54,845 nt of DNA from Gemmatimonadaceae bacterium. GTDB taxonomy: Bacteria; Gemmatimonadota; Gemmatimonadetes; Gemmatimonadales; Gemmatimonadaceae. The translations under genes were made by a program, and so were the position numbers. The notes under the pieces are model-generated. The model made no database searches and was not told where the DNA came from. It was given only the letters and a program-made list of their open reading frames with translations. Numbering within the stretch: position 1 is the first letter of the stretch; each line of letters starts with the position of its first letter. The stretch is from the NCBI GenBank assembly GCA_025931335.1, contig JAICNG010000014.1, positions 1 through 54,845 of the forward strand. Reading direction: 5' to 3'. This document shows positions 10,078 to 15,896 of this stretch, in pieces.

Positions 10078-10231
10078 TTGGCCGCAGATGAAGGCAAATG
10101 ACGCAGATAGCTCACGCCGTGCGGAGACCTACATGCCAGGTGACGTACCCAACGTCTTTGGTGTTGTAACGCGCAAGGAGGAAATATCGCGCAAAGAACG
10201 ATCTGCGTCATTTGCGTTCATCTGCGGCCAA
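10078..10231. repeat. 31-bp near-perfect inverted repeat with 92-base core
   Basis: The left arm 10078-10108 and right arm 10201-10231 match as reverse complements at 30 of 31 positions (core GCAGATGAA...GACGCAGAT). The core contains GCGCAAGGAGGAAATATCGC-like sequence and no recognisable gene. The element spans the convergent leuA/pheA gap, and the right arm and core are read as the last 33 codons of pheA. No transposase is present, so this is a small non-autonomous or dispersed intergenic repeat. Confidence 0.8.
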
Positions 10232-11058
10232 CCAGCGCCGTGCGGTAGAGTGTAGCTGCCCACCACGCGACAGGACTTTGCAATGCCGCGAACCGCGTCC
10301 AGCGCCTGCGTCATGGCAGGCTCACCCGCCGCGTGCTCGATCTCGACGATGAATCGGTAGCTCCACGGCTCTCCCGTCGGGCGCGACTCCAGTTTACTCA
10401 GGTTGAGGGCGTGCTCGGCGAACGGACCCAGGAGCCGATGCAGTGCGCCAGGCGTGTTGGCGACGGTGACAAGAAGGATGGTTCGTGCCGCGGTCCCATC
10501 CGCGAGTGCCGCGGCGCTGCGGCTGATCGCCACGAACCGCGTCTGGTTATCCGGGCGATCCTCGACGTCCGCCTCGAGGATCTCGAGGCCATAGTGGGCC
10601 GCGGCGATGCGGCTCGCGAGAGCGGCGCGCCGCGGGTCACAGGCGCGCGCGACCTCCATCGCTGAGCCCGCCGTATCGTACGTCGCGCGCGGCTCGAGGT
10701 AGGGATGGCGTGCAAAGAATCCTCCACACTGTGCCAGTGCGACGGGGTGACTCTCTACCCAACGGATCGCGGCCAGCGATGTCCCGGGAGGCGCGAGCAC
10801 GCAGTGGTGGATTCCGATGATCGTCTCCCCGGTGGCGACGACCTGCTCGCAGGCGGCGAGGGCGTCGTAGCTCGCCACGACGCTGCCGGCCAGCGTGTTC
10901 TCGACCGCGAGGAGTCCGGCACCGACCTCGCCACGCTCGATCGCCCGGGCCACGTCGATACACTCGCGCATGGGGACCGGGGTGGCGTTGGGCCACAGCC
11001 TAACTACTGCTTCCTCGCTGTAGGCGCCCGGCGCGCCCTGGTACGCTACGCGGAGCAT
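10129..11058 (-). CDS. pheA: Prephenate dehydratase with ACT domain
   Basis: PheA converts prephenate to phenylpyruvate for phenylalanine synthesis. The 309-residue protein begins [15 protein letters not shown] after the start, has the catalytic TRF motif in NQTRFVAI, and a C-terminal ACT domain with the phenylalanine-binding PGAL and ESRP motifs. It is monofunctional, with no chorismate mutase part. The start at 11058 lies 13 bases inside aroF, so the two are coupled. The conserved fold ends near GSYTLP. The last 33 residues, beginning [10 protein letters not shown], are encoded by an inverted repeat element, so the original C-terminus seems to have been replaced or extended. Confidence 0.93.
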
Positions 11059-11918
11059 GGCATCGCACCACGGGCGGGCGCCACCGAGCGCGTGCTCCAG
11101 GGCGCGTCGCGGCCGACTGCACGAGCCACGGGAGCGAGGCGGCGCATCAGGTCCTCGAAACCGTCGAGCGTCAGCGACTGCTCGCCGTCCGACCAGGCGG
11201 CGGCTGGATCGGGATGCACTTCGACGATGATTCCATCGGCGCCGGCCGCGACGGCAGCAAGCGCAAGCGGCGCGACGAGCGCGGCACGTCCACCCGCGTG
11301 ACTCGGATCGACGATCACCGGGAGGTGGGTCTCGGCCTTGAGCACCGGGACGGCCGACACGTCCAGCGTATTGCGCGTGGCCGTCTCGAACGTTCGGATG
11401 CCGCGCTCGCAGAGCACGACGTTCAGATTCCCTCGCGACATCAGGTGCTCGGCCGCGAACAGGAGCTCCGATACCGATGCCGACTGTCCGCGTTTGAGGA
11501 GCACGGGCATGCGCGTGCACCCGACCTCGGCCAGCAGGGCAAAGTTCTGCATGTTCCGCGCGCCGATCTGGAGCATGTCCGCATGCGCCGCCACGAGCTC
11601 GACGTGGCGCGTGTCGAGCACTTCGGTGACCACGGGCAGTCCGGTCGCCGCGCGGGCGATAACGAGGAGCTCGAGCGCTTCGGTTCCGAGGCCTTGAAAG
11701 CTGTAGGGTGAGGTGCGTGGCTTGAACGCGCCTCCGCGCAGCATCACCGCGCCGGCGCCTTTGACCGCCCGCGCGGTCTCCAGCAGCATTTGCGGCCCTT
11801 CCACCGAGCAGGGCCCGGCGATCACGGTGAGCTCGACGTCACCGATTCGAACACCGTCGGCGACGTCGATGACGGTGCGCGCGGACGCGGCGGCTCGTGC
11901 GCGGAGATTGGTCAACAT
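11046..11918 (-). CDS. aroF: 3-deoxy-7-phosphoheptulonate (DAHP) synthase, type I-beta
   Basis: This enzyme condenses phosphoenolpyruvate with erythrose 4-phosphate, the first step to aromatic amino acids. The 290-residue protein shows [10 protein letters not shown] near residue 32, [17 protein letters not shown], the KRG segment LLKRGQSAS and PSHAGG near residue 215, as in the KdsA-like I-beta class. Only about 30 residues precede the barrel. The ferredoxin-like regulatory domain of the Thermotoga type and the chorismate mutase domain of the Bacillus type are therefore both absent. It is the first structural gene after the aromatic attenuator and overlaps pheA. Confidence 0.93.
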
Positions 11919-11937: not shown

Positions 11938-11973
11938 AAAAAAAAGAGCGGCCCCCGTAGCTACGGGGGCCGC
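11938..11973 (-). terminator. Aromatic attenuator terminator before aroF
   Basis: On the minus strand a perfect 26-base palindrome (11948-11973, up to 13 pairs) is followed by eight U residues (A run at 11938-11945), 20 bases before the aroF start. A competing antiterminator can form when GGGGGCC at 12031-12025, inside the leader ORF, pairs with GGCCCCC at 11971-11965, the left side of the terminator stem. Its location between a promoter and aroF, together with an aromatic-rich leader ORF, marks it as an attenuator and not the end of thrC transcription. Confidence 0.85.
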
Positions 11974-11998
11974 CGGTCGTCGTCGTCTCGCCGCCAGA

Positions 11999-12094
11999 CT
12001 ATAGGCGTGCGTACGCGCAACCATGGCCCCCAGGGGGGTAGCCACGGAAATACGTAAACGCGAACCAGGAGTTGTGGCGGACGGAGAGGACCAT
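11999..12094 (-). CDS. Aromatic-rich leader peptide of the aroF-pheA attenuator (31 aa)
   Basis: The ORF starts at ATG 12094 and stops at TAG 12001-11999. Residues 10-19 read WFAFTYFRGY: one Trp, three Phe and two Tyr in ten codons, and a further Tyr lies at residue 28. Seven of 31 residues are aromatic, very unlike the surrounding Ala/Arg/Gly-biased sequence. It lies about 22 bases after a predicted transcription start and just before the terminator. By family precedent (pheA and trp leaders) stalling at these codons would report scarcity of charged tRNA-Phe, -Tyr or -Trp. No Shine-Dalgarno sequence is evident. The ORF begins in the middle of an otherwise non-coding gap. Confidence 0.83.
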   Translation of the reverse strand: MVLSVRHNSWFAFTYFRGYPPGGHGCAYARL

Positions 12095-12122
12095 TGGAAG
12101 ATTCGGGTGCGGTGCGTTCGTG

Positions 12123-12151
12123 GATATAATGCTTAGTTGAGGACGCGTCAA
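12123..12151 (-). promoter_or_regulatory. Sigma-70-like promoter of aroF-pheA
   Basis: Reading the minus strand, TTGACG at 12151-12146 is followed by a 17-base spacer and TATATC at 12128-12123. Transcription would begin near 12116, about 22 bases before the leader ATG. The promoter lies just beyond the thrC stop codon, so aroF-pheA has its own start even though thrC points the same way. Confidence 0.65.
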
Positions 12152-12164
12152 GAAGCGGAAGGTA

Positions 12165-13427
12165 TCATGGCGCCCCGCCGCGCGAGCCGACTAGCGCCGC
12201 GACTTCCTTTACGCGCGCCGCGATCACCGGCGCCTCGGCCAGAACGTCGCGGACCGCCTCGGTGGTCTTGAGCCCGTGGCCGGTGATGCACAGCACCACC
12301 TCATCGTTAGGTCCGAAATGGCCGCGCGTCGCCAGCGCCAGCGCCGCGGCGACCGTCACGCCGCCGGCGGTTTCGGCGAAGATCCCGGTCGTTTCGGCGA
12401 GGATCCGGATTCCCTCCACGAGCTCCTCGTCAGTCACGGCCTCCGCCCATCCGCCCGAGTCCGTGATCGCCTTCGCAGCGAACGGGCCGTCGGCCGGATT
12501 GCCGATGGCGATCGATCGCGCGATCGTCGCGGGCACCTCGGGGACGATTCCGCCCTCGCCACGCTCGATGAGGCGCACGATGGGAGCGCATCCTGCTGCT
12601 TGCGCCCCGTAGAGGCGTGGATCGTCTCCCTCGACCAGTCCCGCCTCACGGAACTCGCGGAAGCCCTTGCGCAGCTTCGTCACGAGCGAGCCGCCCGCCA
12701 TCGGCGCAACCACGGCCGTCGGCAAGCGCCACCCGAGCTGCTCGGTGATCTCGAACGCCATCGTCTTGGAGCCCTCGCCGTAGTAACCGCGCAAGTTGAC
12801 GTTGACGATACCCCAGCCGAATCGGTCGGCGAGCTGCGCGCAGAGTCGGTTCACATCGTCGTAGTGACCGCGAATGCGGACGAGGTGGGGAGCGTATACC
12901 GCCGTGGCGAGAATCTTTTCCGGCTCCAGATCCTCGGGCACGAAGATCCACGCCTCGAGGCCCGCTCGCACAGCCTGAGCGGCGACGGCGTTGGCCAGGT
13001 TTCCCGTCGACGCGCAGCCGAGCGTGCCGAGCCCGAACGCGTGCGCGGCATTGATGGCGATCGCGACGACGCGGTCCTTGAAGGAGAGACTCGGGTGCGA
13101 GACCGTGTCGTTCTTGATCCAGGCGCGCGCGACGCCGAGGCGGTGCGCGAGGCGGGGGGCCTCGACCAGTGGCGTGAATCCGGTGTCGAGCGAGTGGACT
13201 GGCGCCCCCTCGAACGGCAGCCATTCGCGGTAGCGCCAAAGTGACGGCTCGCGTGCCTTGATCGTAGCGCGGTCAGGAAGCAGGCGGGCCGCGGGATACA
13301 GCGGCTCGAGCGGCCCAAGGCACCGCTCGCAGATCGCGACCGGAGCCGCCTCCGCTTCCGTGCCGCAGATGCGGCACCGCTGCGGGAGCGCGCGAACGCT
13401 TGCGGCGGAGAGTGTCGATACGGCCAT
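12165..13427 (-). CDS. thrC: Threonine synthase with N-terminal zinc-ribbon-like segment
   Basis: ThrC is a pyridoxal-phosphate enzyme that converts O-phosphohomoserine to threonine. The 420-residue protein has two CxxC pairs near the N-terminus (CRICG and CERC), the PLP-lysine motif LSFKDRV near residue 120, and the phosphate/cofactor loop ASTGNLANAV. Its start overlaps the stop of the preceding gene by one base (TGATG). It is the last gene of a coupled operon with a homoserine kinase, a sulfur carrier and a carrier-activating enzyme. This context resembles that of PLP enzymes that use a protein thiocarboxylate as sulfur donor, so a second, sulfur-transferring activity is possible but unproven. 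Confidence 0.9.
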   Translation of the reverse strand: MAVSTLSAASVRALPQRCRICGTEAEAAPVAICERCLGPLEPLYPAARLLPDRATIKAREPSLWRYREWLPFEGAPVHSLDTGFTPLVEAPRLAHRLGVARAWIKNDTVSHPSLSFKDRVVAIAINAAHAFGLGTLGCASTGNLANAVAAQAVRAGLEAWIFVPEDLEPEKILATAVYAPHLVRIRGHYDDVNRLCAQLADRFGWGIVNVNLRGYYGEGSKTMAFEITEQLGWRLPTAVVAPMAGGSLVTKLRKGFREFREAGLVEGDDPRLYGAQAAGCAPIVRLIERGEGGIVPEVPATIARSIAIGNPADGPFAAKAITDSGGWAEAVTDEELVEGIRILAETTGIFAETAGGVTVAAALALATRGHFGPNDEVVLCITGHGLKTTEAVRDVLAEAPVIAARVKEVAALVGSRGGAP

Positions 13428-14626
13428 CAGTACCTCGGCGTCGAAGGGTCCACCTCCTGACTCCAGCGCGTGATGCCCCCGGCGAGACTCCAGACGCGCG
13501 CGAATCCCGCCGCCCGAAGCTGCCGCGCGGCCGTGGCACTGCGGACGCCACCCTTGCAGTGGATGACGATCTCCCGCGCCGGGTCGAGCGTGGCGAGTGC
13601 GTTCTCTACGGCGGCCAGCGGAATCAGCTGGGCCCCCGGAATGCGGGCGATCTCCCACTCGTGAGGCTCGCGAACATCGATGAGGTCGAAGTCATCGCCG
13701 CGGCTCAGCCGATCGGCCAGCTCGGTCGGCGTGATCTCGGGCACGGCGTCAGCGAGCTGCTCGGCGCCGGCAGTACGCGCGCCGCAAAACGCGTCGTAGT
13801 CGATGAGCTCGCGAATCTCGCGCGTGCCGCAGGCGGGACACGCCGGATGTCGACGCAGGCGTACCGTGCGGAACCGCGTGGCGAGGGCGTCGATGAGAAG
13901 CAGGCGGCCGGCGAGGGGCTCGCCGATTCCCAGCAGCAGCTTGATGGTCTCAGTCGCCTGAATCGTTCCGACGAGCCCCGGCAGGACGCCGAGCACGCCG
14001 CCTTCCGCGCAGCTTGGAACCAGACCGGGCGGCGGCGGCTCGGGGAAGAGGCAGCGATAGCATGGACCGTCGGCGGTCGCGAACACCGATGCCTGTCCCT
14101 CGAAGCGGAAGATCGAGCCGTAGACGTTCGGCTTGCCGAGGAGTACGCACGCGTCGTTCGTGAGGTAGCGCGTGGCGAAGTTGTCAGTGCCGTCGACGAT
14201 CACGTCGTAGTCACGCAGAATCTCGAGCGCGTTCTGGCTCGTCAGGCGCGTGTCGAATCCCTCCACCCCGACGTGTGGGTTGACGTCACGGAGCCGGTCT
14301 GTCGCCGACGCGAGCTTCGAGCGTCCGACATCCTTCGTGCCATGCAGAATCTGTCGCTGGAGGTTCGTGACGTCGACGACGTCGAAGTCGACGAGCCCCA
14401 GCGTGCCGACGCCGGCGGCGGCGAGATAGAGCGCCGCGGGCGACCCGAGGCCCCCGGCGCCGATCAGGAGCACGCGGGCATGCTTCAATCGACGCTGGCC
14501 CGTGACGCCAATATCGGGGATGAGCAGATGCCGGCTGTAGCGGAGTGTCTCGTCGGCGTCGAGCGTTGGCAGATCTGCCGCGGGCGGCGCGTCCACGGCG
14601 TACGGCGAGAGGAGAGCCTGAGCCAT
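13427..14626 (-). CDS. moeZ: MoeB/ThiF-family sulfur-carrier adenylyltransferase with C-terminal rhodanese domain
   Basis: This enzyme type adenylates the C-terminal Gly-Gly of a ubiquitin-like sulfur carrier and loads sulfur through its rhodanese domain. The 399-residue protein has the nucleotide-binding loop GAGGLGSPAALYLAAAG near residue 50, zinc-ligand pairs CYRC and CPAC, and a rhodanese domain from about 290 to the end with the active-site loop HCKGGVRSATA. ATG 14626 is chosen because a purine-rich GGGAGGTTGAGG precedes it. It follows the sulfur-carrier ORF by 4 bases and overlaps thrC by one base. The domain order is that of MoeZ/MOCS3. Confidence 0.92.
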   Translation of the reverse strand: MAQALLSPYAVDAPPAADLPTLDADETLRYSRHLLIPDIGVTGQRRLKHARVLLIGAGGLGSPAALYLAAAGVGTLGLVDFDVVDVTNLQRQILHGTKDVGRSKLASATDRLRDVNPHVGVEGFDTRLTSQNALEILRDYDVIVDGTDNFATRYLTNDACVLLGKPNVYGSIFRFEGQASVFATADGPCYRCLFPEPPPPGLVPSCAEGGVLGVLPGLVGTIQATETIKLLLGIGEPLAGRLLLIDALATRFRTVRLRRHPACPACGTREIRELIDYDAFCGARTAGAEQLADAVPEITPTELADRLSRGDDFDLIDVREPHEWEIARIPGAQLIPLAAVENALATLDPAREIVIHCKGGVRSATAARQLRAAGFARVWSLAGGITRWSQEVDPSTPRY

Positions 14627-14630
14627 GACC

Positions 14631-14903
14631 TCAACCTCCCGCGATGGCAGGCACGATCGTGAGCTCGTCGCCGTCGGCAAGCGGTGCGTCGAATCCGCCC
14701 TGGAAGCGAATATCCTCGTCGTTCAGATAGAACGTGACGTAAGGATACGGATTCCCTGCTTCGTCGCGCAGCCTCGGAGCGAGGGCAGGATACCGTCCCG
14801 CGACGTTGGCAACGGCTTCGCCCACCGTTGCGCCGCGCGTTTCGATAGCCTGGCGGTCGGCGAGCTTCGCGAGAACGGTGGGGAGATGAAGGGTGACGGG
14901 CAT
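14631..14903 (-). CDS. MoaD/ThiS-like sulfur carrier from an internal start (90 aa)
   Basis: Within the 3' part of the homoserine-kinase ORF an ATG at 14903 is preceded by GGAGG with a 6-base gap, the best Shine-Dalgarno site in this operon. From it a 90-residue ubiquitin-like protein would be made. It has the segment YVTFYLNDEDIRFQGG typical of longer MoaD/CysO-like carriers and ends in IVPAIAGG. The terminal Gly-Gly is the site of adenylation and thiocarboxylation. The same residues also form the end of the fusion, because no stop codon separates them. Both forms may exist: a free carrier and a ThrB-linked one. Confidence 0.8.
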   Translation of the reverse strand: MPVTLHLPTVLAKLADRQAIETRGATVGEAVANVAGRYPALAPRLRDEAGNPYPYVTFYLNDEDIRFQGGFDAPLADGDELTIVPAIAGG

Positions 14904-15896
14904 TGCGTTCCTCCGAATCGGTGAAGAGGTGTTGTGCTCGACGAATTGCGGCCGCTCGGCGGCCACTCGGACGCGGTATCCGCGAGCCGGCGTGTTGCTC
15001 TCGAACGCGTCCGACTTCACGCCGAGCTGCGACCATGCCGCGCACATGGCGCGAGAGACGACCGCCGCATCCGGTTGCCGTGCGATGGCGACGATAGATG
15101 CGCCCGATCCGCTGAGCGTCGCTCCGAACGCGCCGGCGTTGCGGGCCGCAGCGACTACCGCGTCGAAGCCCGGCACGAGGTGACGGCGGTAGGGGACGTG
15201 CAGGACGTCATCGAGCGCAGCGGCGAGCAGCGTCGCGTCGCCAGTCGCCAGGCCGTGCACGAGTGCCGCGCCCAGCGCTGCCGCGCGGGCCGCCACATCG
15301 TGAGGTACCGCCCGCGGGAGTACGGCGCGAGCGTGCACCGTTTCGACCATCAGCTCCGGGACCGCCAGCACGAGCGCGACGTCGGGCGCGACGGAGAGTG
15401 CGCGAACCGCCGGCGCGCAGCGGTCGCTGGAAAGTGGCGGCGCGATCGCCAGTGTGGCCCCGCCGAAGATCGCGGGAGCCACGTTGTCGGGATGTCCCTC
15501 GATGTCGGACGCGATCGCCGCGAGGGTGACGTCATCGAGACCGAGCTCGAGTAGCACGTTGGCGGCGATCGCACCGGCGACCGTTGCCGCCGCCGATGAG
15601 CCGAGGCCGCGTGCGACAGGAATCGTCGACGTTGCGAGTACGGCCAGTCCGCGAGGAGCGGCACGCCCTGCATGTGCGCACGCGGCACGAAGGCCGATGA
15701 TGATGCGGTCCTCGGCCGCTGCTACGCCGAGATCGGCCAGCGTGCCCGCGCGCGTGATGCGCGCCTCGACATGCGATGCGGGATCGAAGCCGATCGTGAC
15801 CGAGAGCCACCGATCCACGGCGACGCCGACGCAGTCGAACCCGCCGCCGAGGTTCGATGTCGATGCGGGAACGTGGACGTGGGCGCGGCGCGTCAC
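14631..15896 (-). CDS. thrB: Homoserine kinase fused in frame to a MoaD/ThiS-like sulfur carrier
   Basis: Residues 1 to about 312 are a GHMP-family homoserine kinase, which makes O-phosphohomoserine. It has STSNLGGGFDCVGVAVD at the N-terminus, the ATP loop PVARGLGSSAAATVAG near residue 95, and GATLSGSGASIVAIA near residue 275. After a linker of about 20 residues the frame continues without a stop into a sulfur carrier (residues 332-421) ending Gly-Gly. Normal ThrB is about 300-320 residues. The fusion may be real, or a stop codon may have been lost by mutation or sequencing error, since the carrier keeps its own ribosome-binding site. The GTG start overlaps the panB stop. Confidence 0.85.
   Translation of the reverse strand: MTRRAHVHVPASTSNLGGGFDCVGVAVDRWLSVTIGFDPASHVEARITRAGTLADLGVAAAEDRIIIGLRAACAHAGRAAPRGLAVLATSTIPVARGLGSSAAATVAGAIAANVLLELGLDDVTLAAIASDIEGHPDNVAPAIFGGATLAIAPPLSSDRCAPAVRALSVAPDVALVLAVPELMVETVHARAVLPRAVPHDVAARAAALGAALVHGLATGDATLLAAALDDVLHVPYRRHLVPGFDAVVAAARNAGAFGATLSGSGASIVAIARQPDAAVVSRAMCAAWSQLGVKSDAFESNTPARGYRVRVAAERPQFVEHNTSSPIRRNAMPVTLHLPTVLAKLADRQAIETRGATVGEAVANVAGRYPALAPRLRDEAGNPYPYVTFYLNDEDIRFQGGFDAPLADGDELTIVPAIAGG

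Follow-up and report, generated by a model that had tools for sequence, protein, structure and literature searches.

A short open reading frame (ORF) rich in aromatic codons precedes the aroF and pheA genes of a Gemmatimonadaceae bacterium, and the anatomy of the region together with comparative evidence gives us high confidence that these genes are governed by classical ribosome-mediated transcription attenuation of the trp/phe type. The leader very probably turns aroF on only under aromatic amino acid shortage. Conservation, covariation between the paired arms and the geometry of stalling all favour the original prediction, attenuation of aroF-pheA by a leader mixing Trp, Phe and Tyr codons. 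This mechanism fits the elements read in the sequence and their conservation, as well as the alternative pairing, which covaries, and the position of the stall relative to the pairing arm; from these we infer termination, ribosome stalling and a response to amino acids in vivo.

The leader region and the genes downstream

The window (the whole stretch of DNA analysed, 54,845 nucleotides) belongs to a Gemmatimonadaceae MAG of 3.7 Mb. Reading the minus strand from thrC to aroF reveals, in this order, a promoter, a 31-codon ORF, and a terminator followed by T8. The coordinates originally given proved correct when the sequence was read again.

Near 12165, minus strand: stop codon of thrC, the upstream neighbour.
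12151-12123, minus strand: putative sigma70-type promoter (-35 TTGACG at 12151-12146, 17-nt spacer, -10 TATATC at 12128-12123), from sequence reading and scoring.
12094-11999, minus strand: leader ORF of 31 codons, MVLSVRHNSWFAFTYFRGYPPGGHGCAYARL (ATG at 12094-12092, stop codon ending at 11999), read directly; leaders of relatives lie at the same place.
12038-12067, minus strand: putative regulatory codons W10 F11 A F13 T Y15 F16 R G Y19, from the sequence and the stall model.
12032-12025, minus strand, within the ORF: antiterminator arm (region 2), UGGGGGCC, from the fold, covariation and the synonymous-recoding null.
11963-11974, minus strand: left arm of the terminator (region 3), common to the antiterminator and the terminator, from the terminator scan and the fold.
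11947-11958, minus strand: right arm of the terminator (region 4), from the terminator scan and the fold.
11938-11945, minus strand: U8 tract, where the attenuated transcript is predicted to end, from the sequence and the terminator scan.
11046-11918, minus strand: aroF, DAHP synthase of 290 aa (ATG at 11918; PF00793, 1.4e-80; type I, AroF/PRK08673 family).
10129-11058, minus strand: pheA, prephenate dehydratase with an ACT domain (PF00800, 1.5e-50; PF01842).

The ORF carries WFAFTYFRGY at residues 10-19, as had been described, and thus places six aromatic codons within ten ahead of aroF-pheA, in keeping with the product of the operon. The Phe and Tyr codons of the leaders favour the rarer TTT and TAT (0.55 and 0.42, versus 0.14 and 0.14 in aroF). 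The start of pheA overlaps the end of aroF, indicating that the two genes are probably cotranscribed. The match of AroF to PRK08673 begins only at model position 72. The protein thus lacks an N-terminal domain, some 72 residues long, which is retained in the longer form of most relatives. Attenuation might substitute for allosteric control where the N-terminal domain of AroF is missing. The genome also holds another copy of DAHP synthase (54% identical), upstream of which no such leader is present.

At seven other loci (L006, L014, L020-L023 and L034), aroF apparently also encodes a protein without the N-terminal domain, as judged from the closeness of the terminator to the catalytic domain; pheA lies downstream of aroF in the window and at all of these loci.

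Terminator and antiterminator in the window

The terminator had been described as a perfect 13-bp stem with eight U. The U8 tract is present, but the perfect repeat of 13 bp (GCGGCCCCCGTAG/CTACGGGGGCCGC) is a palindrome without a loop, and the RNA folds as 12 pairs closed by a 4-nt loop. This stem-loop (11974-11947, followed by T8 at 11945-11938) has a stability of -26.6 kcal/mol, which was equalled by none of 200 shuffled sequences. It lies between the leader and the first gene, and a strict scan of the window detected only two further strong intrinsic terminators.

An arm within the ORF (12031-12025, GGGGGCC) had been proposed to pair with the left side of the terminator. This arm is present, it repeats the right arm of the terminator, and the corresponding antiterminator fold was found, with pairing of 12032-12025 to 11971-11964. 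Without the right arm of the terminator, the segment folds at -44.6 kcal/mol in a structure that includes the antiterminator (z -3.5; 0/200 shuffles). A 1:2 (pause) hairpin at 12045-12020 (-12.1 kcal/mol) is unsupported in the window since it is no better than shuffled sequences (z -0.15). A conserved 1:2 hairpin, visible by eye in several relatives, was dropped as a candidate because the window copy does not rise above shuffles; such a hairpin is usual in E. coli attenuators and is not treated here as essential.

T-boxes and proteins are generally known to regulate aromatic genes in other phyla, and a ligand-binding riboswitch or an RNA-binding protein, instead of the ribosome, might control this terminator. 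We consider this extremely unlikely because the competing arm sits within a conserved aromatic ORF and because no Rfam family matched the window at gathering score, the sub-threshold matches all being to unrelated families.

Conservation of the leader and predicted leaderless translation

The original prediction had suggested a search for similar ORFs upstream of aroF in related genomes. Upstream regions of AroF relatives were gathered from the family, the order and the class, and scanned with a strict detector requiring a short ORF rich in aromatic codons whose end lies 8-75 nt upstream of an intrinsic terminator. Such a leader and terminator were found at 62 of the 132 AroF loci, which include paralogues without a leader, versus none of 396 shuffles and none of 132 reverse complements. 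A relaxed search combined with inspection brought the collection to about 88 leaders in all, in families f1, f2, f3, f5, f7 and f8 of the class; the leader is missing in some relatives. The leader ORF and its aromatic codons, on whose conservation the prediction had been staked, are both conserved. The peptide sequence is variable outside the aromatic run, and Arg-rich tails are repeated in many leader peptides. The same switch, tuned to differing aromatic amino acids, thus appears to recur across the bacterial class.

In a collection of named genomes, an ORF and a terminator were detected upstream of aroF in 12 of 80 cases (two Gemmatimonadaceae, one weak) and in none of 240 shuffles. These cases include about nine loci outside the Gemmatimonadota with an aromatic-rich short ORF followed by a terminator (L062, L081, L082, L090, L092, L094, L101, L107 and L110), in records of Acidobacteriota, Clostridia, Fusobacteria and Chloroflexi. 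This distribution suggests that the leader design may extend beyond one phylum.

The putative promoter of the window, located upstream from a leader ORF that is conserved in relatives, was passed over by a strict consensus scan, its -10 hexamer ending in C. From the position of this promoter, transcription is expected to start near 12116. The -10 hexamer lies 28 nt before the start codon, leaving a predicted 5' untranslated region of about 21 nt, and no Shine-Dalgarno sequence was found ahead of the ORF. The relatives are arranged differently: a -35/-10 pair ending 5-9 nt before the start codon was detected for 71 of 88 leaders versus 4 of 1760 shuffles, so that transcription is predicted to begin at or near the start codon. 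The leader mRNA of relatives is therefore predicted to be usually leaderless, the window copy, with its gap of 28 nt, being an exception.

Covariation of the alternative pairing

Comparison of 58 leaders revealed covariation in the 2:3 pairing at positions 4 (GC 33, AT 19, GT 6), 6 (GC 28, CG 18) and 7 (GC 35, AT 15), with changes on both sides. When position 4 of the left arm is a U, A-U pairs are frequent in the antiterminator although the terminator retains G-U, indicating that the antiterminator is maintained independently of the terminator. Covariation thus supports an antiterminator that is mutually exclusive with the terminator.

The pairing is also stronger than expected from the peptide alone. 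A contrast between cognate and noncognate pairing was weak, the arms of relatives being alike, and was replaced by a null in which the peptide was kept and the codons were recoded synonymously. For 61 leaders, the mean was -18.7 versus -14.8 kcal/mol for the recoded sequences (Fisher p 7e-18, a value that overstates the evidence because the leaders are related and kinship was left uncorrected). For the window leader alone, the difference was weak (p 0.15).

These results bear on two other explanations. The hairpin follows thrC, which is also on the minus strand, and could be merely its 3' terminator, the ORF being a chance frame. The likelihood of this explanation is close to nil: a promoter separates thrC from the leader, the leader recurs before aroF whatever the upstream gene and never among the 396 shuffles, and the antiterminator pairing covaries. 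This candidate was ruled out on conservation and covariation. The leader might also yield a stable peptide acting in trans, alongside or in place of attenuation, as described for peTrpL of Sinorhizobium meliloti (PMC7298713), and the recurrent Arg-rich tails would agree with such a role. We regard this as very unlikely since the peptide varies freely outside its aromatic stretch and base pairing constrains the coding arm more than the peptide requires. Ribosome-mediated attenuation remains our preferred explanation of the leader.

Position of the stalled ribosome

Among the leaders, a median of 9 nt (interquartile range 7-11) separates the last aromatic codon from the start of the antiterminator arm. 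Stalling was modeled by masking the RNA to 12 nt beyond the first base of the A-site codon, a simple masking that includes no kinetics. In the window, the modeled probability of the antiterminator was about 0.7 for A-site codons 1-17; it fell to 0.58 at codon 18 and 0.30 at Y19, did not exceed 0.05 over codons 20-23, and was 0.07 with the stop codon in the A site. According to this simple model, a stall would free the antiterminator arm and completed translation would not. Since Y19 is only marginally placed for a productive stall, the codons from W10 to F16 should carry most of the sensing. For all leaders, the modeled probability was 0.77 at aromatic codons versus 0.39 three or more codons further on. 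It was still 0.40 at the stop codon in relatives, partly owing to spurious pairings, and the model also allows antitermination from stalls ahead of the aromatic codons.

The switch would operate as follows. RNA polymerase would start near 12116, and a trailing ribosome would translate the 31-codon leader. If tRNA charged with Phe, Tyr or Trp were scarce, the ribosome would stall at codons 10-16, leaving the GGGGGCC arm free to pair with the left arm of the terminator. Formation of the antiterminator would block the terminator, and aroF-pheA would be transcribed. When aromatic amino acids are ample, the ribosome would cover the arm and reach the stop codon, the terminator would form, and transcription would end near 11938.

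Codon content and operon partner

The aromatic run of the leaders preceding aroF-tyrA (n = 27, one Pfam-typed as aroF-aroQ-tyrA and the others assigned by similarity) consists of Tyr (0.78), Phe (0.21) and Trp (0.01), with Tyr as the sole aromatic residue in ten of them. Before aroF-pheA (n = 10), the composition is Phe 0.48, Tyr 0.38 and Trp 0.15. At least one Trp is present in 8 of the 10 pheA-linked leaders, and all three residues in 7 of the 10, versus Trp in 2 of the 27 tyrA-linked leaders. Two leaders, containing WWRWR and WWWPW, precede aroF-trpE according to Pfam and NCBIfam; by eye, the next ORFs look like trpG, plus trpD at one of these loci. Leaders at the remaining aroF loci are of mixed aromatic content.

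The difference in codon content between tyrA- and pheA-linked leaders was associated with a permutation p of at most 0.0003, relatedness being ignored. On the AroF tree, five changes of partner provided at most four independent contrasts (one on strongly supported branches); most of these pointed the expected way, but without reaching significance. The pattern linked to the partner is thus strong, with limited independent support because the tree allows at most four tyrA/pheA contrasts. The codon content of the leader appears to track the operon partner (Tyr-rich with tyrA, a Phe-richer mixture with pheA, Trp with trpE), through few independent evolutionary events.

It is plausible that the window copy senses the overall aromatic supply through three inputs. 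Alternatively, the attenuator may sense a single amino acid, probably Phe, the other aromatic codons being passengers. The aroR leader of Corynebacterium glutamicum provides a precedent, since its Phe-Tyr-Phe codons respond to Phe and not to Tyr (PMC11802643). In addition, the downstream pheA gene makes Phe, the commonest aromatic residue in pheA-linked leaders. We consider sensing of Phe alone possible but doubtful for two reasons. Trp is kept before pheA, together with all three residues in most leaders, and is nearly missing before tyrA, so that the aromatic mixture looks selected. W10 and Y15 also both fall inside the permissive window of the stall model. We regard three-input sensing by the window copy as likely.

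Other features of the window and of the aroF loci

A Leu-rich leader occupies positions 143-267 of the plus strand, upstream from a leuC-leuD-leuB-ilvD-ilvB-ilvN-ilvC-leuA cluster, with a promoter (TTGACA-16-TAGATT) and a terminator at 245-267. Within its ORF, CGAGAGGC repeats the right arm of the terminator, a design similar to that of the aroF leader. On the minus strand, a single ORF at 14631-15896 combines a GHMP kinase (thrB-like) and a ThiS domain, as a fusion or as two overlapping genes, and adjoins a ThiF-rhodanese ORF at 13427-14680. At loci L147, L159, L161, L170, L182, L193 and L194, aroF adjoins a gene on the opposite strand resembling, by eye, one for an acetylornithine aminotransferase-type enzyme, and genes resembling argininosuccinate synthase or lyase lie near aroF at many loci of family f7.

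Discussion

We tentatively propose a joint reading in which an attenuator of modular design, leaderless in most cases, would control the first shikimate gene of Gemmatimonadota, its codon set being retuned upon a change in the partner of aroF: Tyr alone or mostly before tyrA, all three residues with a Phe bias before pheA, and Trp before trpE. The window would hold the three-input version, with an acquired 5' untranslated region and a DAHP synthase lacking the N-terminal domain, for which attenuation may replace allosteric control.

These observations extend ribosome-mediated attenuation at the entry step of the shikimate pathway to the Gemmatimonadota. They also provide a natural series of one switch reading Tyr, Trp or a mixture, in which the weighing of several amino acids by a multivalent leader can be studied, and open the question of the evolution of regulatory codons under operon rearrangement. 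The predicted Tyr-only leaders would be unusual: our literature search, which covered few subscription papers, found no described leader of this form. It also found no report of a leader peptide or of attenuation for the Gemmatimonadota. As far as searched, the novelty resides in the phylum, the three-way codon mixture, the class-wide leaderless form and the link between codon content and operon partner.

The leaders of ilvGMEDA and thrABC are multivalent, several amino acids being sensed by one leader. They resemble the window leader in this respect but respond to branched-chain amino acids or to Thr and Ile, not to three aromatic residues.

The mechanism itself is known, and aroF leaders have already been described or proposed in Corynebacterium and Acholeplasma. 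The aroR leader upstream from aroF in C. glutamicum, with Phe-Tyr-Phe codons, acts by attenuation based on ribosome stalling (PMC4046766, PMC11802643; Neshat 2014 via PMC11802643). Like the window leader, it is an aromatic-codon leader peptide preceding a DAHP synthase gene. It differs in belonging to an actinobacterium, in its Phe-Tyr-Phe composition, with no Trp reported, and in the lack of effect of Tyr availability (PMC11802643). The uORFC-13-1 motif of Acholeplasma comprises a predicted uORF followed directly by an intrinsic terminator and aroF (PMC8632094). It shares with the window the combination of a uORF and an intrinsic terminator before aroF, but has been reported only from Acholeplasma and environmental sequences, and sensing of Phe only was proposed (PMC8632094). 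Putative attenuators have also been listed before tyrA-containing operons, some of which are led by DAHP synthase genes (PMC1173090), and a survey of Actinobacteria found Phe and Tyr operons to be without conserved RNA structures (PMC1262725). The polycysteine leaderless short ORFs of mycobacteria, an amino-acid-responsive attenuator (Canestrari 2020, cited in PMC9031893), share the leaderless short-ORF form with most relatives of the window leader. They involve cysteine, not aromatic residues, and are described in that review as affecting translation of downstream genes (PMC9031893); the window copy itself is predicted not to be leaderless. Finally, the trp and pheA attenuators of E. coli, which are generally known and reviewed in PMC11802643, have in common with the window a leader ORF, regulatory codons, and an antiterminator competing with an intrinsic terminator. 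They each sense one amino acid and precede another downstream gene, whereas the antiterminator arm of the window lies within the leader ORF.
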